Shown in pieces: positions 1,774-34,762 of a stretch of 40,386 nt of DNA. The notes beneath the pieces were generated by a model. That model saw only the letters and a program-made list of their open reading frames with translations. It did not search any database and was not told the origin of the DNA. Made by a program: the position numbers and the translations under genes. How positions within the stretch are numbered: the first letter of the stretch is position 1; each line of letters begins with the position of its first letter. The stretch covers positions 1 to 40,386 of the IMG/VR virus record IMGVR_UViG_3300021376_000133. One strand, given 5' to 3'. This stretch comes from a virus.

Positions 1774-2274
1774 TCATCTCTCCCAACTAAAAATACTCCC
1801 ATCAGCATTTTCAGAATATACCATATTACCAACATATGTATATTTCCTCCATTTCCCATTCTCATCTTCAGAATATATCAGATTATCACTTGAATCATAT
1901 TTCATTTTCCGCCAATTTCCAGTTGAATTTTCAGAATATATTCTATTACCTCTTGAATCATATTCTTCTTTTGACCAAGTACGTTCAAATATATTTTCAG
2001 AATATATTCTATTACCTCTTGAATCATATACATTTAGATAATCAAACCCATCTTTATCTTCTTCATAATCTACCTCCTCACCAAATTTTATTGATAATAT
2101 TTTTTCATATAAATGGTAAGGTACACCTAACGAATCTAAATTAAAAAAATATGGTGGTTCAATAAACTTGACTATTTTATTGATAAACCTTTCTTCTTTA
2201 TCTACTTCTTCTTTAATCACTCTGTTAACGATACGAGATAAAGTAATTGTTTTTCTGTCTTTTTTAATTTTCAT
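1774..2274 (-). CDS. Tagged YD-repeat (RHS/MORN-like) protein
   Basis: A 166-aa protein read from ATG 2274. An in-frame ATG 57 bases upstream exists, but the internal start gives the tag shared by many genes here, ending in RIVNRVIKEEVD with VIKE as the putative protease site. After the tag comes a ~50-residue helical module containing EPPYFFNLD that resembles the one in the protein at 31015-31422. The C-terminal half has four YD-type repeats of the form YDSRGNRIYSEN..G.W, which form beta-hairpins in RHS-like proteins. It lies alone on the minus strand between two gene fragments, which suggests insertion. The motif ATATTTATA lies 18 bp upstream. Function unknown. Confidence 0.7.
   Translation of the reverse strand: MKIKKDRKTITLSRIVNRVIKEEVDKEERFINKIVKFIEPPYFFNLDSLGVPYHLYEKILSIKFGEEVDYEEDKDGFDYLNVYDSRGNRIYSENIFERTWSKEEYDSRGNRIYSENSTGNWRKMKYDSSDNLIYSEDENGKWRKYTYVGNMVYSENADGSIFSWER
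1811..2030. repeat. Four tandem imperfect repeats encoding YD units
   Basis: The plus strand shows four copies starting with TCAGAATATA at 1811, 1868, 1931 and 1997, spaced 57, 63 and 66 bp. The last two copies are identical over about 30 bp. Spacings are multiples of three, so the repeat is a coding repeat that can expand or contract in frame. Confidence 0.8.
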
Positions 2275-2291
2275 AATTTTAGTTTTTATTT

Positions 2292-2300
2292 TATAAATAT
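2292..2300 (-). promoter_or_regulatory. ATATTTATA motif, candidate phage promoter element
   Basis: Reads ATATTTATA on the minus strand, about 18 bp upstream of the YD-repeat gene start at 2274. It is one of the strand-oriented copies of a motif found before many genes in this window. Confidence 0.4.
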
Positions 2301-2312
2301 AATAATTTTTTT

Positions 2313-2510
2313 GATAATTTATTACCTTCATGTCCTAGATGTAATAAATGGAAATCCACTTATTCATTAGAAATGTTTCGAAATATTGTTGAGTCATCTA
2401 TTGATAGGTTACAAAGAGATACACCTAATTATAGATTGGCAAAAGATTATGGGTTAATAAAGGTAGAACAAAAACCTGTAATATTTTTTTTTTTGAGAGA
2501 AATAATTTGA
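2313..2510 (+). pseudogene. HNH endonuclease remnant (C-terminal part only)
   Basis: An open frame without a usable start encodes DNLLPSCPRCNKWKSTYSLE, then FRNIVESSIDRLQRDTPNYR, LAKDYGLIKV and KPVIFFF before TGA. This is the second half of a phage HNH endonuclease: DNLxPxCxRCNxxKS is the zinc and ββα-metal part, and the RLxRDxxxxRLAxxYGL tail is typical of the family. The catalytic His-Asn half upstream is missing and the frame is stopped at 2280-2282, where the YD-repeat gene begins on the other strand. The remnant is not frameshifted, so loss may be recent. Its 3' end carries the -33 box of the next gene's promoter. Confidence 0.65.
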
Positions 2511-5119: not shown

Positions 5120-5687
5120 ATTAACTGAAAGTCAATATAAAAAATTATTTGAGGATGATAGTGAATCATTATCTATAGGTAATACTATTACCCCAAAGAT
5201 AATAAAGATTATGAGATATCTAAAAAAAGTTTATACTGACACAAATGAAACTACTGAGGATTTAAAAAAAAATTGGGGTTTAAGTGATCTAGATGCGACA
5301 ACAATAATTAATAATTATGAAAAAAGTTTTGAAAACACACCCGAAAGTGAATATGAATCTTTTTTGGGTGAACCATTAGAATTTCAGGGAACTTATATAA
5401 TTAATGTTGCATTACCTGCGATAGTTGAAGCCAGAACATTTTTTGATTATCAAATAACCATAAGGGCTGGATCGAGAGAAGAGGCATTATACAACGCCTC
5501 CCAATTAATCGATAACCCTAGTTTTAAAGTCGATATAATTGATTCAGTTTATAATTCATCAGTTGAATTAGATTGGGAACTTTATGAAGCGAAACTTGAG
5601 AGAGATATGTCAGCCGATATTTTACATGATTTTTATAATGAATGGTCACCAAAACAATTAGAACAGTATATTGATTTAAAAGAATGA
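5109..5687 (+). CDS. Tagged protein with shared helical domain
   Basis: A 192-aa protein starting MKIRLTESQYKKLFEDD, one of the recurrent tags (LTES plus LFE as possible cleavage points). Residues about 25-75 form a helical domain ending in WGLSDLDATTIINNYEKSF that resembles the N-terminal regions of the proteins at 10818, 15066, 18975 (minus) and 28843. The remainder is mixed alpha/beta with an aromatic segment FFDYQITIRAGSREEALYNA. No catalytic motif is visible. It overlaps both neighbours and starts a trio of tagged genes. Confidence 0.65.
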   Translation: MKIRLTESQYKKLFEDDSESLSIGNTITPKIIKIMRYLKKVYTDTNETTEDLKKNWGLSDLDATTIINNYEKSFENTPESEYESFLGEPLEFQGTYIINVALPAIVEARTFFDYQITIRAGSREEALYNASQLIDNPSFKVDIIDSVYNSSVELDWELYEAKLERDMSADILHDFYNEWSPKQLEQYIDLKE

Positions 5688-6037
5688 AAGTTTTAATAAC
5701 CGAAAATCAACTTATAACTGTCTATCAAAAAATAGTTGATATCGCGTTTAATGATTTAAAGGAAATTTGTGAGAATTCCACAGAGGATGATAATTGGGAT
5801 TACTCTGATGAAGATTTGGATTGTGAAACAATTTTAGATACGGTAGAAAATGTTGAGGTTGTAACTGCGTTTGATAATGAAATAGGATTAATAGTTTATA
5901 TTGACACTATTTTTGATACCGCAGATGTAGGTATGTTTTTTTATGATTTAGAAAAACAAATAAAAGAAACAACAGGTAAAGGAAATATAAAAGTTAAACT
6001 TTTAAATGTTATTAATAATAGACAAAGAAATTGGTGA
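5684..6037 (+). CDS. Tagged acidic small protein
   Basis: A 117-aa protein starting MKVLITENQL, with LITE as the putative site after only seven residues. The body is acidic (EDDNWDYSDEDLDCE), followed by a beta-rich part with hydrophobic strands. No recognisable domain. It is coupled to both neighbours by overlaps (ATGA at 5684, TGATG at 6035-6039), so the three tagged genes from 5109 to 6465 form one operon. Confidence 0.6.
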   Translation: MKVLITENQLITVYQKIVDIAFNDLKEICENSTEDDNWDYSDEDLDCETILDTVENVEVVTAFDNEIGLIVYIDTIFDTADVGMFFYDLEKQIKETTGKGNIKVKLLNVINNRQRNW

Positions 6038-10817: not shown

Positions 10818-11918
10818 ATGAAATTAAGTAAACTTATAACAGAAAATACCATCCAACCAATACATAAAAGAGTTCTTAGGGCAATGACACTTTCTTTGGG
10901 GGAAACTGATGATGTTTCCGTAACATGGTCATTTTTAACTAAAGTTTTAAATATCTCTGATATGGATCTTAAAAATGAACTACTTCATTTATTTTTAAAT
11001 CATTTTAATGAAGATGGTAATTATGAAAATTTAACTGATTCAGATTTAGAAGATATGGATGATATTTCTTATTATGATAATGAACATTTGGCATTATCAG
11101 AATTTTTAGATTTACCACCAGTATTGATAATAAAAGAATCTTATAATCATTATGGTTTAAATGTTTATAAGGATTTGGAATCTGATAGATATTATGCAGT
11201 TGGTGATGATGATGACGCAACACGTGCAATGGAACAACGTTTTGACGGGTGGGTTGATGAACTTGGTTTAGATAATATAAATAGTTGGGATTTGGAAGAT
11301 TATCTTGAAATTGATTACTACGTATTGAATGATTTGGCATACGATGAGGCAAATCGAGAAATAGAAGATATGAGTGATGAACAAATAATTAGTAAAGCTG
11401 GTTACGATGAAGATGAAATTAAAAATAATATAGAAGAAATTGAGGCAAAAATAGAGGAAATTTCTGAAGAAATATCTTCATTAGATGATGAGATGAGTGA
11501 TCTGGAAGATGAAAATGAAGATGGGAATCTTGATTCTGATATAGAAAAAATAAGTATTAGAATGAGAGAATTGAGTGATGAACTAAGTGATTTAGAATCC
11601 CAATTAGAGTATAAACAAAATGAATTAGAAGAGTTATTGGATGTCGCTAAAGAAGAATTAATGGAGGAATTGGAAGAAAAATATAAGGAAAGAATTGAAA
11701 GTGAAGGTTTAGATTATTTTACGGATGAAATGGGCTACACTAGAACAGACGCAATAAATAGATTTTTCAATTTTGATCAATCAGGATTTGAAGCGAATTT
11801 AGCAGAAACAGAAGATAGAGGTTCATCACTAGCTGGTTATGATGGACGTGAAGTTATTATCATTTTAAAAGAGGACGAAACGTATAATGGTGAAACATAT
11901 TATATTTATAGAATATAA
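10818..11918 (+). CDS. Tagged coiled-coil protein, paralogue of 15066-16190
   Basis: A 366-aa acidic protein starting MKLSKLITENT (LITE as putative cleavage site). Residues about 15-70 form the shared helical domain (LTKVLNISDMDLKNELLHLF). A middle part with YGLNVYKDLESDRYYAVGDD and a DLEDYLEIDYY segment is followed by a long coiled coil at about 200-290 rich in E, L, I and S, then a compact beta end (REVIIILKEDETYNGETYYI). The order and sizes match the protein at 15066, so they are diverged paralogues. The fold suggests an elongated, possibly multimeric virion or internal protein. A motif variant ATATTTATT lies at 10784. Confidence 0.65.
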   Translation: MKLSKLITENTIQPIHKRVLRAMTLSLGETDDVSVTWSFLTKVLNISDMDLKNELLHLFLNHFNEDGNYENLTDSDLEDMDDISYYDNEHLALSEFLDLPPVLIIKESYNHYGLNVYKDLESDRYYAVGDDDDATRAMEQRFDGWVDELGLDNINSWDLEDYLEIDYYVLNDLAYDEANREIEDMSDEQIISKAGYDEDEIKNNIEEIEAKIEEISEEISSLDDEMSDLEDENEDGNLDSDIEKISIRMRELSDELSDLESQLEYKQNELEELLDVAKEELMEELEEKYKERIESEGLDYFTDEMGYTRTDAINRFFNFDQSGFEANLAETEDRGSSLAGYDGREVIIILKEDETYNGETYYIYRI

Positions 11919-11947
11919 TAAATTAAGAATAGAATAAATTAAGTATT

Positions 11948-13525
11948 ATGAAGATAAAATTAGGTATAGAACAATACAAGAGGTTATTTAATGAAATGAG
12001 GTTTGATGGTAAGTCAACTGGTTTATTTTCAGAAGAAGAACCTAAAGTAGTTAATGAATTTGGTGATAAAATGAAATCCCTTTTTAATAACAAAAAAGAA
12101 GACATGATTAACTCATGGAAAAATTTTGTTAATATCGCAAAAAGAGAAAAGTCTGAAACTGTTGAGGCAGTAAAGATATTAGGTAACTTACTTTCAAACA
12201 AAGAAGTTTCTGAAAGAGATATAAAATTTTTAAAATCACAATCTAAAGATATTGCAAAGATTGTTGCAGTTATGAGTATGGGTGCGGTGTCTATGGCAAT
12301 TCCTATCGCATTAGAAAAGATATTGAATAGGTATGGTATAACTATTATGCCGAATAGTCATAAAGAAGAAGATGAAGAAGGTGTAGAAAATTTAGATGAA
12401 GGTAAAAAGAAAAAATCTAATAAACTATGTGCTAGAGGTGTTAGTGCCGCCAAAAGTAAGTTCGATGTTTATCCATCTGCCTACGCTAATGGATATGCGG
12501 TTCAAGTATGTAAAGGTAAAATTAAAGGATTAGATGGTAAAAAAAGATGTAGTGGAAATTATTGTTCGGGTAGTAAAAACGAATCTTGGTCACCTGAAAT
12601 GGCACAAGATTTAGATTCATTTCACGATATAAAAATTCACGAAGATTTGGCGGTATGGTTTGGTACTAAGAAAAAAGGTAAAGGTAGTAAACAACCACAA
12701 GGACCTTGGGTAAACATATGTAGAAAAAAAGAAGGTGGTGGTCATCCTGAATGTGGTAGAGGTGATTCCGATAAAGGAGGTTACCCAGTTTGTAGAGCAA
12801 AGAGTGTGGCAGCTAATATGAGTCAATCTGCAAAAGATTCGGCTTGTAGACGTAAGAGAGAAAAAGAAAAGAATGACGGTAAATCAGGTAAAGGACAATC
12901 TCCTAGTCCGATTAAAATTAAAGGATATAAATCTAAAAAGAATGAATCTTTAAACTATGATAGAATGTTACTAACTGAAAGTAGAACTATCATTAGTGAA
13001 GGTTTAAAATATCACGTAGACAATCAAATACCTTTAACGGAAACAGTTTATAGATACGGAAGTAAATCCTTTTTCAATTTAATAAATGAAGTTAGGGATT
13101 TATATTTAAAGGGTAAAGTAGATTTATCTCAAAATGATTTAGAAATGATTAAAACCGACATAGGTAAACAAGGTTTATATGAAGGTAAATTAGTATGGTT
13201 AGACATACCTAACGAATATTATGATTTAAATGAGGCAGAATATAAAGGTAAAAAAGTAGAACTTAGTAAACCTAAAAGAGGTGGTTCTAAGAAATTTTAT
13301 GTTTATGTAATGTGTAACGGTAAAGTTAAAAAAGTATCCTTTGGTGCAAAATCTGGTGGAGGTAATTTGGCAGTTAAACTTAGAGATCCTAAGGCTAGGA
13401 AGGCGTTTTCTGATAGACATAATTGCCCCCAAAAGAATGATAAATGTAGTGCAGGTTATTGGAGTTGTAGACTACCTAGATACGCAAAACAATTAGGATT
13501 ATCAGGTGGAGGAACTTGGTGGTAA
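11948..13525 (+). CDS. Tagged multidomain Cys-rich protein
   Basis: A 525-aa composite protein. It starts MKIKLGIEQYKRLFNE, a tag variant. Residues 60-130 are helical, with a membrane-like stretch AVMSMGAVSMAIPIALEKIL near 109-128. Then come a module with CARGVSAAKSKFDVYPSAYA (near 157), a basic module with WFGTKKKGKGSK and GGGHPECGRGDSDKGGYPVC (near 235-290) that resembles DUF6321-like segments of large viruses, a helical module preceded by LLTES and ISEG, and a C-terminal module VKKVSFGAKSGGG with RHNC and AGYWSCRLPRYAK. Several internal L/I-x-E sites separate the modules. It may be a structural or nucleic-acid binding polyprotein; function unproven. Confidence 0.6.
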   Translation: MKIKLGIEQYKRLFNEMRFDGKSTGLFSEEEPKVVNEFGDKMKSLFNNKKEDMINSWKNFVNIAKREKSETVEAVKILGNLLSNKEVSERDIKFLKSQSKDIAKIVAVMSMGAVSMAIPIALEKILNRYGITIMPNSHKEEDEEGVENLDEGKKKKSNKLCARGVSAAKSKFDVYPSAYANGYAVQVCKGKIKGLDGKKRCSGNYCSGSKNESWSPEMAQDLDSFHDIKIHEDLAVWFGTKKKGKGSKQPQGPWVNICRKKEGGGHPECGRGDSDKGGYPVCRAKSVAANMSQSAKDSACRRKREKEKNDGKSGKGQSPSPIKIKGYKSKKNESLNYDRMLLTESRTIISEGLKYHVDNQIPLTETVYRYGSKSFFNLINEVRDLYLKGKVDLSQNDLEMIKTDIGKQGLYEGKLVWLDIPNEYYDLNEAEYKGKKVELSKPKRGGSKKFYVYVMCNGKVKKVSFGAKSGGGNLAVKLRDPKARKAFSDRHNCPQKNDKCSAGYWSCRLPRYAKQLGLSGGGTWW

Positions 13526-29381: not shown

Positions 29382-30035
29382 ATGAGGAATTTAAATGAGG
29401 AAATAAATAAAATTAAACATCTTATTGAATACAGTAGTGGAGTTTTATTTACCAAAATGGGTGCGGATGAAGGTGGTTCTGGAGACAAAACTGATTATAT
29501 TGGTAGTGAATTATGGAAGGGTATAAAAAAGGATAATTCAAAAGAACAAAACACTGAAGAAGGTAAAACACCAAAAAATATAATTATAGGGGACTCACAA
29601 ACAAAATACGTCGCAAAAAGGACAAGTAAAGCACAAATGATATCAGGTTCTGAAGGGGAATCAACTTTACAAAAAGGAAGTACAACTGTAAATTGGTTAA
29701 GAGATTCTGTAAAAAAATACCCAGTAAGTCCTGAAGTTCAAAATGTAATTCTTTGTACGGGAACTAATGGTGGTTATTCTAATTTTGAAAACGATATTGA
29801 TGGATTATTTTCTGCAGTTAAAAAAACATTTCCTAATGCTAAAATATTTGCAGTGCAAGGATCGTGGGGATGGGGAGGATTGACAAAATATAACGAATCT
29901 TCTGTAAGAAATTATTATAAAAAATATCAAGCACTTGGGGCGACACTAATTGAACCACCAATTGGTGGAATTGAACCACATGGGGATAGACCCGTTTATA
30001 AATTAATTGGTGCAGACATAGATTCTAAACTTTAA
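29382..30035 (+). CDS. Tagged SGNH/GDSL hydrolase
   Basis: A 217-aa protein starting MRNLNEEINKIKHLIEYSSG (LIE as possible site). After a polar linker the SGNH blocks appear: IIIGDSQT with nucleophile S72 (block I), CTGTNGG with N129 (block III) and GGIEPHGDRPVY with H200 (block V). Block II Gly lies in the GSEGEST region. SGNH enzymes are esterases or O-deacetylases; in phages they often act on acetylated surface polysaccharide or peptidoglycan. The GTNG form and EPHG order fit the phage branch. With a tag, it may be packaged in the virion. Confidence 0.8.
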   Translation: MRNLNEEINKIKHLIEYSSGVLFTKMGADEGGSGDKTDYIGSELWKGIKKDNSKEQNTEEGKTPKNIIIGDSQTKYVAKRTSKAQMISGSEGESTLQKGSTTVNWLRDSVKKYPVSPEVQNVILCTGTNGGYSNFENDIDGLFSAVKKTFPNAKIFAVQGSWGWGGLTKYNESSVRNYYKKYQALGATLIEPPIGGIEPHGDRPVYKLIGADIDSKL

Positions 30036-30049: not shown

Positions 30050-30091
30050 ATGAATATAGAAAATATAATTAGAAAAGTATTAAAAGAATAA
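30050..30091 (+). pseudogene. Orphan tag ORF
   Basis: A 13-codon ORF, MNIENIIRKVLKE followed by TAA. It is exactly a tag up to and including the expected cleavage Glu, with its own ATATTTATA motif and no cargo behind it. A deletion or point mutation may have removed the cargo gene. The 30 bp after it have no continuing frame. Confidence 0.5.
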
Positions 30092-30121
30092 ACTTCTAAA
30101 AAGAAAGACATTTGTAATATT

Positions 30122-30349
30122 ATGAGTGTAGATACATATGAAGAAGGTATAGAATTATTAGAAAACCATATAGGGACAATGAAAGAAAATCCTAAGATGT
30201 GGGATAAAATAAAAAAACCTTTAAGAATGTGGAAAGAATCGACTATTGAAATAAGAAAGGAATTGGATGAGTATGGTATGACAGGTAATTCAGAAGTAGA
30301 TGAATCAGATACTTGGTGGTCAGCAATACAAAGTACAATATGTAAATAA
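30122..30349 (+). CDS. Small helical hypothetical protein
   Basis: A 75-aa protein (MSVDTYEEGIELLENHIGTM, then KIKKPLRMWKESTIEIRKEL and a Ser/Asp-rich end with SDTWWSAIQSTICK). Helical and charged, with no tag and no recognised family. It follows the orphan tag after 30 bp; it could be the former cargo in a different frame context, but no continuous frame joins them. Confidence 0.5.
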   Translation: MSVDTYEEGIELLENHIGTMKENPKMWDKIKKPLRMWKESTIEIRKELDEYGMTGNSEVDESDTWWSAIQSTICK

Positions 30350-30369: not shown

Positions 30370-31011
30370 ATGGGAAGAATTAGTAAAATAAAACGAGAGT
30401 TAATATTAGAGGCGAATAAAAAATTACTTAAAGAATATGATATAGATGATGACAATAAAATGTCATTTATGGATGAATTAAAATCAGATGGTGGTGAAGA
30501 AATAATGAATGAAATAGGTATATCCCTAACCAACCAAGAAGACGTAATTAATTCATTAGACAATACAGAAATTTGTCAAATGTCTGATATGGATTCATAT
30601 GTTGAAAAGAAATTCGGTCAAGTTGTTAAAGAAAAATTTAAAGATAAGGCAACAGAAATATTAAATATTATAAAAGAATATATAAATAAGTTTGTGGACT
30701 TTTTAAATACTTTAACAGTTAAAGATTTAAAAAAGTTATTTAAAAATTTAAAAGCTAAAAAATCTGAAGCAGAAAAAACTGAATCAGGTGATGAAGAAGT
30801 TTTAAAAGAATTTTTTGGAACTTCTATGGCACTTGTTACACTATTTGGTAGTTTTACTATGCCAGCTTTAGTATTAACTATTGCTAGTGTAGTATTAGTA
30901 ACTTTAATAGGTTTATGGTTGGTAAATGCAATACTATGTGCGTTTAACATAAGTGTGACTAGTAAAAAAAGATGTAGAGTAAGAAGTTTCGAATGGGGTC
31001 AATGTAAATAA
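30370..31011 (+). CDS. Tagged membrane protein
   Basis: A 213-aa protein starting MGRISKIKRELILEANKKLL followed by KEYD, a basic tag with LILE and LLKE sites. The middle is acidic then helical and lysine-rich (KDLKKLFKNLKAKKSEAEK). At about 145 there is a second site-like VLKEF, followed by two hydrophobic helices (FGTSMALVTLFGSFTMPALV and LTIASVVLVTLIGLWLVNAI) and a Cys-containing basic end. Cleavage at both sites would free a hydrophobic peptide. Membrane insertion during or after DNA entry is an attractive guess. Confidence 0.6.
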   Translation: MGRISKIKRELILEANKKLLKEYDIDDDNKMSFMDELKSDGGEEIMNEIGISLTNQEDVINSLDNTEICQMSDMDSYVEKKFGQVVKEKFKDKATEILNIIKEYINKFVDFLNTLTVKDLKKLFKNLKAKKSEAEKTESGDEEVLKEFFGTSMALVTLFGSFTMPALVLTIASVVLVTLIGLWLVNAILCAFNISVTSKKRCRVRSFEWGQCK

Positions 31012-31014
31012 AAA

Positions 31015-31422
31015 ATGATTAATAGAAAAAAAATTAATTATATCATAAAGGAAGAGGTCGATAATATAAACCAACTTAAAAAAGTTGCATTTTTAATTTC
31101 GCCCCCATATCTAAAAGACATTTATTATAATTTTAATATTACTGATGATGAAAAAATAATGTTTATTTTAGAAACTTTATTTATGCAAAAAATTAAACCT
31201 GAAAAAAATATATCACAAAAAATTAAAAACGGTAGTGATGTATTTTTGGTGGATGTTAATCCAATAAACGGAAAACATTACTGGTTTTATTATGAAAATG
31301 AAAATGCTTGGCAAGTAGGAGTTCGAAATGATAATGGTAATAATGTTAAAACCTATGGTCATGATGGAGACGAATATTGGGAGGAGTATTATGATGATAA
31401 TGATGTTGAGTATAATGGTTAA
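31015..31422 (+). CDS. Tagged small protein related to the YD-repeat protein
   Basis: A 135-aa protein starting MINRKKINYIIKEEVDN (IIKE as site). The module VAFLISPPYLKDIYYNFNIT then IMFILETLFMQK resembles residues 30-75 of the minus-strand YD-repeat protein (IEPPYFF..., ILSIKFGEEV). The end is a single YD-like unit with WQVGVRNDNGNNVKTYGHDG and an acidic Tyr-rich tail. Its last 95 bases are part of the 130-bp direct repeat, so a copy of its 3' end lies again at 32309-32403. Confidence 0.6.
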   Translation: MINRKKINYIIKEEVDNINQLKKVAFLISPPYLKDIYYNFNITDDEKIMFILETLFMQKIKPEKNISQKIKNGSDVFLVDVNPINGKHYWFYYENENAWQVGVRNDNGNNVKTYGHDGDEYWEEYYDDNDVEYNG

Positions 31423-31457
31423 TACGATATGAAAAATTTACAAGAAGAAATAAAAAG
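31328..31457. repeat. 130-bp perfect direct repeat, copy 1
   Basis: Identical by eye to 32309-32438, offset 981 bp. It covers the last 95 bases of the gene at 31015, the intergenic bases and the first ten codons of a tagged gene starting MKNLQEEIKR. In this copy the tag runs into unrelated sequence. Confidence 0.9.
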
Positions 31458-31491
31458 GGTGGAAGTTTTAATTCTTAATATTTATATATAA
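31429..31491 (+). pseudogene. Truncated tag ORF created by the duplication
   Basis: A 20-codon ORF, MKNLQEEIKR then ten unrelated residues and TAA. Its first ten codons are identical to the start of the gene at 32410 and lie in repeat copy 1. It is the broken first copy of that gene's start. Confidence 0.75.
31478..31486 (+). promoter_or_regulatory. ATATTTATA motif, candidate phage promoter element
   Basis: ATATTTATA 13 bp upstream of the ATG at 31500, inside the inserted segment, so the insert brings its own candidate promoter. Confidence 0.4.
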
Positions 31492-31499
31492 AAGAAAAG

Positions 31500-32234
31500 A
31501 TGAAAGATTTGAGAAAATTTATTAAAACCAAGATAAGAGAGTTTTTAGTTGAAAGCGATGATAAAAAATTAAACTTTGCTAAAGATTTTTATAATTATTT
31601 TCTTAAATATTGTAGAAATAATATAGACGAAATAGTAAATACGTTATTAACAGAAGGTTATTATAGTTTTTACTTATACGAAATTAATGTAGAAATAACT
31701 ATTGACGATTTAGTTGGTTCTCTTGGAGAATATGACGATGATGCAAAAAAACTCACAATAGGATTATTCAAAATATTCAAACAATTTTTATCAAAAATAG
31801 ACGATTTGGAAGAATTGGAAGATTATGAAAAAGAGCTATTATATGATGGTATAAAAAAAGTGTTAACGGATGAAAATTCCACATATCTAAAGGAGATAAG
31901 AGAGATTTTCATACACGAAATAACACACCATTATGATAATATAAATTATGGTTTTGGTTATAGAAATAATGTTGAGAAATTAGAAAGAATTAGGAAAGAA
32001 ATAGAAGATGAAGAAAAAAGAAATAATTTCTATCTTAATATGCACCATGAGATAAATGCGAGAATTATCACTGCTTTAGACCAATTAATTGATAACCATG
32101 GAACAGGATTTGGAGACTTTGATACTTTCTTTCGAATGACTTTAGATTATTTTCCTTACTATCATAAATTAAGTTATGAAAATAAACAAAAAGTTCAAAA
32201 AAGATTATATAAATTTTTTCAAAAATTGAATTAA
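31500..32234 (+). CDS. Tagged HExxH metallopeptidase-like protein, on inserted segment
   Basis: A 244-aa protein starting MKDLRKFIKTKIREFLVES, a tag with FLVE as site. A helical region is followed by IFIHEITHHYDNINYG with H139-E140-H143 as zinc-binding HExxH and MHHEINARI (E184) as a likely third ligand, the arrangement of a gluzincin or a related metallopeptidase. The rest is helical (YYHKLSYENKQKVQKRLYKF). The gene lies entirely between the two copies of the 130-bp repeat, so it was probably gained as a unit. Confidence 0.68.
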   Translation: MKDLRKFIKTKIREFLVESDDKKLNFAKDFYNYFLKYCRNNIDEIVNTLLTEGYYSFYLYEINVEITIDDLVGSLGEYDDDAKKLTIGLFKIFKQFLSKIDDLEELEDYEKELLYDGIKKVLTDENSTYLKEIREIFIHEITHHYDNINYGFGYRNNVEKLERIRKEIEDEEKRNNFYLNMHHEINARIITALDQLIDNHGTGFGDFDTFFRMTLDYFPYYHKLSYENKQKVQKRLYKFFQKLN

Positions 32235-32308
32235 GTAGTGTGTTTCTTTTAAAATTTTCAACCGAAATGATGATTAGAACGATGAACAGAACACTTACAC
32301 ATAACGAG

Positions 32309-32438
32309 ATGATAATGGTAATAATGTTAAAACCTATGGTCATGATGGAGACGAATATTGGGAGGAGTATTATGATGATAATGATGTTGAGTATAATGGT
32401 TAATACGATATGAAAAATTTACAAGAAGAAATAAAAAG
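32309..32438. repeat. 130-bp perfect direct repeat, copy 2
   Basis: Second copy of 31328-31457. Here the first 95 bases are an orphaned 3' end of the gene at 31015, and the last 29 bases are the true start of the 469-aa gene at 32410. The segment 32235-32308 between the metallopeptidase gene and this copy holds no gene. Confidence 0.9.
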
Positions 32439-33819
32439 AATGAAAGAAATGATGGGCATTATAACAGAAACTAATGTTTATCAAAATAATTTAATTACTG
32501 AATCTATTGAAGGTAAAAGATGTTGGTATTATAAAAAAATTGCTGATGGTTCTTACAACAGTGATGAAAGAGTGCCTAACCCTAATAATGGGGCTGGTGA
32601 CGTACAAGAATTTTTGATTAAAGTGGGGTATAAGATCACAAAAGATTGGGACTTTGGTAATGGTACTGCTAAGGCATTAGGTACTTGGGCATATGGAGCT
32701 AAAGAAGGTATTGATAGTGTTGATAAATTATGGGCTAGAATGAAAAAGTCTGGTTGGGATGTCGGTACAACTAGTGGTTATGGTCCTAAAATGATGAAAG
32801 CGGTTGCGGATATGATAATAAAAATGTGTAAGTCCTTATCTAAAACTTGTAAGGTTGATCAACAAACTTTATTTGATATGGATTTTGATTTAGTCCCTAA
32901 AGAAGTATCGGATGCAAAAAATATTACTATACCTGCGGAATTAAATAAAAGTTTTAAATATGCAGTAGGTTACTGGAGGAAATATTTAAATACCCCAAAA
33001 GTACAAAAAAAAATATATGCCAATATGACTACTACGGATTATTTAAAAGATATGTTTTCTTTAGATAGTATAATAGAAAAATATTTAAATGCTTTAGATG
33101 AAGTAGAAAAAAAAGGTTGGTTAGATTATACCAAAAGAGCAGAAGAAATTGGTGCTTCTATGTATGTTAGTGGGAGTTGCCCAAGATACACAGTTTGTGT
33201 TAATATTAATTCATATTACTATTATTTTAAAGAAGGGATAGAAACTTTAAAAGAAAAATCTAAAAATACCTTTGTTCATGAAATACAACATATTTTATGG
33301 GCAGAAGTACGAAATTTAAATTCTACCATAACCATACAACAAGCCTTTCCTGCGGCATATGATTATTATGGTACAGAAGAAAAGGAAATGGAGAATAGAG
33401 CTTCAATCGAAATTATACCTGTCGAAGCTAAAAATGAATTAGATTCTAAAGGTATCAATCATAGGGATTTGATAAATTATTATAGTACTGAAAATTGGAA
33501 AAGTGGTTATAATTGTGATTGGAATGAAAAATTATCTAATTTGGCAGCATATAGAAGTTATTTAGGTGAGAAAGGTTTGATTAAAACGGGTGAGGATATT
33601 CCATTAAGTATAATAACTAAACATATAAAATCTATATTAAATGGTGAGGATATATCAGGTGATTTAGAACGTATGATAGGTTGTTGGGTTATAGGTAATT
33701 TTGAACCAAAATTATCCGTATTTGTGAAAGAACTTAACGAACTAGCTAAAAATGATATAGACTCAAAAGAAAAAGATTTTAAAAACCCTAACCAAATAGA
33801 TAAAACAACAGATGCCTAA
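32410..33819 (+). CDS. Tagged HExxH metallopeptidase with PG-binding-like domain
   Basis: A 469-aa protein starting MKNLQEEIKRMKEMMGIITE, a long amphipathic tag with IITE as site. Residues 60-95 (GAGDVQEFLIKVGYKITKDW, GNGTAKALGTW) resemble a peptidoglycan-binding repeat. After a helical region, NTFVHEIQHILWAE gives HExxH at H290-E291-H294, and ENRASIEI near 328-335 is a candidate third ligand. Possible roles are cell-wall peptide cleavage at entry or digestion of a host protein. It overlaps the next gene by 8 bp or less; the upstream copy of its start was broken by the insertion. Confidence 0.68.
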   Translation: MKNLQEEIKRMKEMMGIITETNVYQNNLITESIEGKRCWYYKKIADGSYNSDERVPNPNNGAGDVQEFLIKVGYKITKDWDFGNGTAKALGTWAYGAKEGIDSVDKLWARMKKSGWDVGTTSGYGPKMMKAVADMIIKMCKSLSKTCKVDQQTLFDMDFDLVPKEVSDAKNITIPAELNKSFKYAVGYWRKYLNTPKVQKKIYANMTTTDYLKDMFSLDSIIEKYLNALDEVEKKGWLDYTKRAEEIGASMYVSGSCPRYTVCVNINSYYYYFKEGIETLKEKSKNTFVHEIQHILWAEVRNLNSTITIQQAFPAAYDYYGTEEKEMENRASIEIIPVEAKNELDSKGINHRDLINYYSTENWKSGYNCDWNEKLSNLAAYRSYLGEKGLIKTGEDIPLSIITKHIKSILNGEDISGDLERMIGCWVIGNFEPKLSVFVKELNELAKNDIDSKEKDFKNPNQIDKTTDA

Positions 33820-33820
33820 C

Positions 33821-34762
33821 ATGAAAAATATTAATGAAGAAATAAATAGAATTCAAAATATAATGGGAATTTCACCCAAAAATTTCATGAATGAATGTAC
33901 AATTGCGGGAGTTAAATTAGAGGACACAATTGTATTGGCAAAAAATAGAGATAGGGGTTATAAAGCGAAAATAGAATTGGTGCATGAAATAGTTGACGAT
34001 ATTGAAATTGCCTATTGGAGAGATATTGATACTGATTGGAGTGAGGGTATGAATGAATATGGAATAGGTATTGTTAATTCAAGTTTAGCGGTTAAAGAAG
34101 ACGAAAAAGAAGGTGAAAATATAAATAATTTTCGTGAAAATGATTCTACAGAAAAAAAAATGAAATCGTATAACGGTAAAAAAATTAGAAAAGCATTATC
34201 CTATAAAACAATAGAAAAAGTTATAAAATCTATTGTTTCTTACACTGGCGAAGATAAATATGACGTTGGATTGAAGGGTGAGACGTTAGTTGCAGATGAT
34301 GAAAATATTTATGTCATTGAAATGACGAGAATTCATAATCATATAATAAAAAAATTAAAAAAAAATTCAAAACTTATTGTAAGAACTAATCACGGCATCT
34401 ATCAAAAAGATGCTGGGTATACAAAAGGTGAAAAAAGGAAATCATCTTTATCTAGAATGAAATTGGCGAAAAAACATTTAAAAGATGCTAAAACTGATAT
34501 TGATGTTATTGATAAGTTAAAACAAAAATATGAGGATGATCCATTTTTAAACCCTTATAGAACTAAAAATATGTACAATATGTCTACTGTTGGGCAAATT
34601 ATGTTGAACATAGAAAAAAAAGAAATTGTTGTTAGAATAGATAATGAAATGGGTGAATTTGTTGGTATAGAAAACAAATTACCTAAAGATTATACACCTA
34701 AGATTAAAATTAGGGTAGAAAATGAAAAAACTCACCTTGATGGTGAGAAATTACCTACTTAA
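33821..34762 (+). CDS. Tagged Ntn-hydrolase (choloylglycine hydrolase/C45/NRDE-like)
   Basis: A 313-aa protein from ATG 33821 (MKNINEEINRIQNIMGISPK), with FMNE just before CTIAGVKLEDTIVLAKNRDR. Cys26 followed by a strand and then NRD matches N-terminal nucleophile hydrolases with Cys, which need a free N-terminal Cys. EYGIGIVNSSL (the 'GLaisln' strand), GETLVADDENIYVIEMT and VRTNHGIY (the 'tNH' motif) extend the match to penicillin acylase, C45 and related families. Cleavage after FMNE would give precisely that Cys as residue 1. It would hydrolyse an amide, for example an N-acyl compound. An upstream ATG at 33812 is possible but spoils the tag. Confidence 0.68.
   Translation: MKNINEEINRIQNIMGISPKNFMNECTIAGVKLEDTIVLAKNRDRGYKAKIELVHEIVDDIEIAYWRDIDTDWSEGMNEYGIGIVNSSLAVKEDEKEGENINNFRENDSTEKKMKSYNGKKIRKALSYKTIEKVIKSIVSYTGEDKYDVGLKGETLVADDENIYVIEMTRIHNHIIKKLKKNSKLIVRTNHGIYQKDAGYTKGEKRKSSLSRMKLAKKHLKDAKTDIDVIDKLKQKYEDDPFLNPYRTKNMYNMSTVGQIMLNIEKKEIVVRIDNEMGEFVGIENKLPKDYTPKIKIRVENEKTHLDGEKLPT

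Follow-up and report, generated by a model that had tools for sequence, protein, structure and literature searches.

A perfect 130-bp boundary repeat brackets a probably recently gained tagged gene in a hypervariable cargo slot of a T4-like phage

Repoila et al. 1994 reportedly described hypervariable internal-protein (IP) genes with capsid-targeting sequences in T-even phages, and Comeau et al. (cited in PMC4503421) are said to have described PeSL cassettes, promoter-terminator units by which genes of T4-type phages are shuffled. The internal proteins of T4 are diverse, injected and aimed at host defence (PMC3012670, PMC12373910); they possess targeting propeptides of 10-20 residues, and T4-type proteases cut after Glu (PMC5694885). 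T4 also recombines at short homologies, with tandem units as the outcome (PMC9391042).

The locus reported here is a new form of a kind of locus familiar from T4-type phages, hypervariable and with capsid-targeted cargo, and the pattern is real, recent and recurring. It lies in the IMG/VR virus record IMGVR_UViG_3300021376_000133, of which the whole analysed stretch of 40,386 bp is termed the window. With the T-even IP loci (PMC3012670, PMC12373910) it shares diverse, swappable small genes with a common N-terminal propeptide, here predicted to be cut after Glu, and a related phage, G005, has the T4-type gp21 and gp23 families. It differs from those loci in its several tag classes, dozens of tagged genes and enzyme-like cargo, in the exchange of tags between bodies, and in the perfect duplication of a boundary round the newest gene. 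The tandem amplifications of T4 tifA (PMC9391042) are comparable in their illegitimate joining during T4-type replication and their directly repeated units; however, the tifA unit is a repeated native segment, whereas the repeat here brackets a non-duplicated new gene. The likeness to PeSL elements lies in the use of conserved regulatory DNA at gene boundaries as shuffling seams, most visibly in a repeat of G005 described below. In the window, by contrast, the seam is mainly tag-coding DNA plus the 3' end of the upstream gene, and a search of 30900-32700 for a PeSL element (early promoter plus stem-loop terminator) found no terminator-like site. The features of the locus are the following:

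30370..31011, + strand: syntenic gene upstream of gene A; body conserved, tag different between the window and relatives
31015..31422, + strand: upstream gene A (ORF with homologues), 135 aa, tag MINRKKINYIIKEE; its 3' end forms the first 95 nt of the repeat
31328..31457, + strand: repeat copy 1, consisting of the terminal 95 nt of gene 31015 in their native place, TACGAT and a 29-nt piece of tag; 100% identical to copy 2
31429..31491, + strand: tag stub, by translation MKNLQEEIKR/VEVLILNIYI-stop, a truncated copy of the 32410 tag
31458..32308, + strand: unique segment between the copies (from G+C and contig comparison), 851 bp, 24.4% G+C
31478..31486, + strand: promoter-like ATATTTATA ahead of the insert gene (from a pattern count)
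31500..32234, + strand: bracketed cargo gene X (ORF), 244 aa, tag MKDLRKFIKTKIREFLVE, HEITHH, candidate zincin
32309..32438, + strand: repeat copy 2, consisting of the orphan 95 nt of the gene 31015 3' end, TACGAT and the genuine opening 29 nt of 32410; 100% identical to copy 1
32410..33819, + strand: downstream gene B, 469 aa, tag MKNLQEEIKRMKEMMGIITE, conserved HEIQHILW, 54-58% identity to relatives
33812..34762, + strand: tagged Ntn-hydrolase-fold gene further downstream, with a conserved hydrophobic-x-Glu/Cys

The two stretches 31328-31457 and 32309-32438 had been judged identical in the initial annotation, and this holds to the base (130/130): across the whole window they form a maximal exact repeat of 130 bp with zero mismatches and a spacing of 981 bp. 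As the next-longest exact repeats in the window are just 37, 24 and 22 bp long, a chance origin is excluded. The translations likewise agree with the composition proposed for each copy. Copy 1 is the end of gene 31015 followed by ten codons of an ATG-started tag, which reads MKNLQEEIKR and then runs into foreign codons until the stop at 31491. Copy 2 joins an orphan 3' end of 31015, upstream of which this segment has no open frame of its own, to the genuine start of 32410. Copy 1 is also present in G001 (IMGVR_UViG_3300020190_002979), an independent and near-identical contig of the same virus, whose alignment to window positions 1-31604 shows 16 mismatches, each of them close to the left end. 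G001 supports copy 1 and the left joint of the insert; since it ends inside gene 31500, the right joint (32308/32309) is known from the window contig alone. As a separate observation, all 16 differences between the two contigs fall within 127-481 (355 bp), the contigs being otherwise identical, and this cluster suggests a local exchange between strains.

The segment between the copies, first described as about 850 bp with a motif and a tagged gene of its own, proves to be 851 bp, with ATATTTATA at 31478 and 31500-32234 as its sole ORF. Among nine related contigs 31458-32308 has no significant match except in the window and G001, and seven related records that do not belong to the same virus, including L009-L011, L012/L013, L025 and L026, lack gene 31500. 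A search for its donor or relatives in viral contigs, phage records and genome contigs, collections that may omit records very close to the window, matched the same virus only. Against Pfam, NCBIfam and PDB sequences the protein gave no match; its best PHROG match is unannotated (E 0.003) and its single-sequence fold model is poor (pLDDT 51). Of the original metallopeptidase assignment, then, the HExxH motif stands, being present in the translation as HEITHH, but no family or structure-sequence match accompanies it, and the protein is a candidate zincin metallopeptidase by this motif. The promoter-like ATATTTATA occurs 17 times in the window, more often than the 6.6 expected. Its core, ATATTTAT, was rejected as a mark of tagged genes: it is not enriched before them (29% vs 23% before others, p = 0.36). 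Base composition was uninformative as a sign of foreign origin, the G+C content being 24.4% in the insert, 23.3% in gene 31015 and 27.8% in the window.

The initial annotation also held that 31015 and 32410 were formerly adjacent, and comparison with relatives that have no insert bears this out. Homologues of 32410 (54-58% identity) occur in two lineages, L009-L011 and L012/L013, in which the 30370-, 31015- and 32410-like genes are directly adjacent in that order and 31500 is absent. Hence, adjacency is likely to be the older state, although perfect repeats could be removed by clean excision, so that the empty site alone gives no direction. The homologues of gene A are 33-36% identical; those of L011 and L012 immediately precede the 32410 homologue, and in L026 one more slot lies between the two; a profile search for further 31015 relatives found none, and genome contigs had no relatives of 32410. 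Across the 32410 relatives it is the bodies that align while the tags do not, and both the 32410 and 30370 bodies bear different tags in the window and in the relatives.

The copies differ at 0 of 130 positions (95% upper bound 2.3%), in line with the claim of a recent event. G007, the closest relative by backbone, differs from the window by ~20% at the nucleotide level, and a repeat as old as that split would show zero differences with a probability of ~2.5e-13. The duplication is therefore younger than this split, absent gene conversion.

Other relatives differ in the same slot. Between its 31015 and 32410 homologues, L026 carries an unrelated tagged gene (5503-5958) with no long repeat; a relative of this gene is found after the 32410 homologue in L010/L011, with a partial match in window gene 29382. 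L025 has the 31015 tag fused straight onto the 32410 body. By these comparisons the slot between 31015 and 32410 is a polymorphic hotspot. The extra gene of L026 indicates that gene addition does not require duplication. The suggestion that the locus shows how the payload set may be extended is supported with a caveat: other relatives change the slot without a long duplication, and repeat-bracketed gain is one route of extension among several.

Comparable arrangements are seen in two other phages, G005 and L054, where perfect repeats of 61 and 70 bp bracket one tagged gene within an array of tagged genes. In G005 (166 kb) the 61-bp repeat (103224/104912, spacing 1688) brackets the tagged gene 103331-104911; it begins 20 nt past the stop of the upstream gene, with no 3' coding end inside, and finishes with a terminator-like hairpin, after which comes a promoter-like motif. 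Adjoining it is a 65-bp perfect tag repeat (105027/105696) ahead of two unrelated bodies. The 70-bp repeat of L054 (11934/12647, spacing 713) brackets the tagged gene 12007-12621 and leads into the tagged gene 12720; it comprises the last 44 nt of the tagged gene 11468-11977 plus a promoter-like stretch, and so the order seen in the window recurs: the end of a gene, a tagged gene, an orphaned gene end and a further tagged gene.

Alleles that differ in cargo can also be observed between close siblings, these like all the related records being metagenome virus contigs in which assembly errors of their own are possible. G002 and G003/G004 (L009 9401-9668 vs L010/L011) are 99.99% identical over 9,449 bp and then part immediately behind the tag MRLHESIRRILREET, where their cargo becomes unrelated, a case to be treated cautiously as the L009 contig ends 219 bp past the divergence. 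Between L100 (3137-3346) and L101 (5252-5974), siblings with 98-99.7% identity, ~514 bp of cargo is present or absent, and the left breakpoint lies inside the tag after codon 5 (MIKLK). L122 (8437-9297) differs from L120, to which it is otherwise 99% identical, by an 871-bp insertion that brings in an untagged gene and has a 7-bp direct copy, AACACTA, on its flanks.

On balance, we lean towards a recent gain of one capsid-targeted tagged cargo gene in the hypervariable slot of a T4-like phage by allele stacking. In the proposed ancestor, genes A (31015) and B (32410) would have been adjacent, with the slot after A polymorphic, and X (31500) would have filled that slot in a sibling phage, its joint lying inside the tag of B. 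During a mixed infection, a genome that still had B may have gained X by one illegitimate exchange, which linked the end of X to a point within the 3' end of A and produced A-J-X-J-B (J denotes the shared boundary). On the right, J would then end where the X and B alleles diverge, inside the tag, and on the left wherever the exchange happened to land in A. The right edge is indeed inside the tag in the window, and just before the start codon in L054; the left edge lies 95 nt inside A in the window, 44 nt inside the gene in L054 and 20 nt past the stop in G005. The observed sibling pairs with different cargo at a shared tag (G002 vs G003/G004; L100 vs L101) support stacking. The donor allele with a single occupant, A-J-X, was not seen; near-identical siblings show many cargo changes but none of them is an A-J-X allele of the 31015/32410 locus, and G001, which stops within X, cannot decide the matter. 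Besides the stacking route, we infer injection of the products and an instability of the 981-bp unit, which the repeat would allow to be lost or amplified by homologous recombination.

The same end product could arise by a one-step insertion, in which a fragment with X was captured at a break, or through template switching in join-copy replication, with the return joint 130 bp upstream of the exit point and the boundary thereby duplicated. No earlier A-J-X allele would be needed, and the insertion that distinguishes L120 and L122 has the same layout in miniature. Stacking, however, yields two boundary copies round a single-copy gene with one new joint where one-step capture requires two, and the tag-seam cargo alleles that stacking requires are observed directly; we regard one-step capture as a serious but rather unlikely route. 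Tandem segmental duplications at short homologies arise readily in T4 (PMC9391042), which would accommodate a tandem duplication of J-B in which X later took the place of the first B copy. That order of events appears improbable to us: it takes two events, and of the first B copy nothing is left past 29 nt.

Alternatively, two strain variants might have been joined through their shared boundary during assembly. The window is a virus contig, G001 ends within X, and a repeat length of 130 bp is near common maximal assembly k-mers. Against this, the reads must contain each of the two joints to X, the left one was independently assembled in G001, like structures are present in G005 and L054, and empty sites exist. 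We therefore consider an artefact unlikely, indeed very much so for the locus as a whole, and what doubt there is concerns the right joint. Flanking direct repeats would also be expected of a mobile element that inserted itself, be it a transposon with target-site copy, a homing element or an integron-like cassette; but the 851 bp contain no transposase, integrase or nuclease ORF and no terminal inverted repeats, and the repeats of 130, 61 and 70 bp differ in sequence between phages, which speaks against a fixed site. Such an element is barely credible here, and a transposon with target-site duplication was rejected, with 31500 the only ORF and no inverted repeat pair at the insert ends.

The capsid-targeted character of the cargo in the stacking account derives from the tags. 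Forty-eight tagged proteins in four contigs fall into three tag classes, in which a short N-terminal propeptide is common to otherwise unrelated proteins. The tag ends in [LIVMF]xE in 17/21 members of the QEEI class (background 0.19) and 13/13 of the TESDL class (background 0.11), counted in the two classes for which the motif is not itself part of the search pattern. The prohead protease and capsid protein are absent from the window fragment and were found only in the relative G005, which has a T4-type prohead protease of family PF03420 and a Gp23 capsid protein of family PF07068, each scoring over the cut-off; its capsid protein shows LLNE/STSA at about residue 60. Judged by sequence, the tags are most likely T4-like capsid-targeting propeptides that would be cut after hydrophobic-x-Glu by the prohead protease; the tagged proteins would thus be packaged in the head, and their mature forms are probably injected with the DNA.

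The best support for tag cleavage comes from the gene at 33812, which belongs to a family with 79 related loci (L054-L132). A hydrophobic-x-Glu stands directly before an invariant Cys in 47/48 distinct homologues. Two members of the family match Pfam AAT above the cut-off, and Foldseek matches the model of 33812 (pLDDT 85.7) to structures of isopenicillin N acyltransferase and bile salt hydrolase, which are Ntn hydrolases. Removal of the tag by the prohead protease would expose the predicted catalytic Cys, and the family is possibly an enzyme switched on by capsid maturation.

More tentatively, a broad phage group may keep arrays of genes for head-packaged proteins in which tag-coding DNA serves as the recombination seam. 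A single unequal exchange could stack cargo alleles, so that the old payload is kept and a new one gained, while the perfect repeats permit quick loss or amplification. The window captures, soon after the event, the enlargement of a probably injected protein set, an event with counterparts in two other phages. This raises a testable question: is cargo swapped behind a fixed delivery tag, with both versions kept by stacking? If so, the tags would list the injected effectors of uncultured phages and the repeats would mark the newest ones.

The first 52 residues of the tagged protein encoded at 29382-30035 in the window match a HAD-like tagged protein of L010/L011/L026 and the remainder does not; this gene appears to be a chimera, or a truncated and refilled cargo. 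At 30053-30349, the tag MNIENIIRKVLKE is followed by an in-frame TAA and then by a gene body (ORF 30122), a tagged gene interrupted right behind its tag; the counterpart in L025 (5676-5969) is open from tag through body. On the opposite strand, 1774-2331 (-) is a gene with a KEEVDKEE tag, YDSRGNRIYSEN-type repeats and a 37-bp exact direct repeat (1927/1993).
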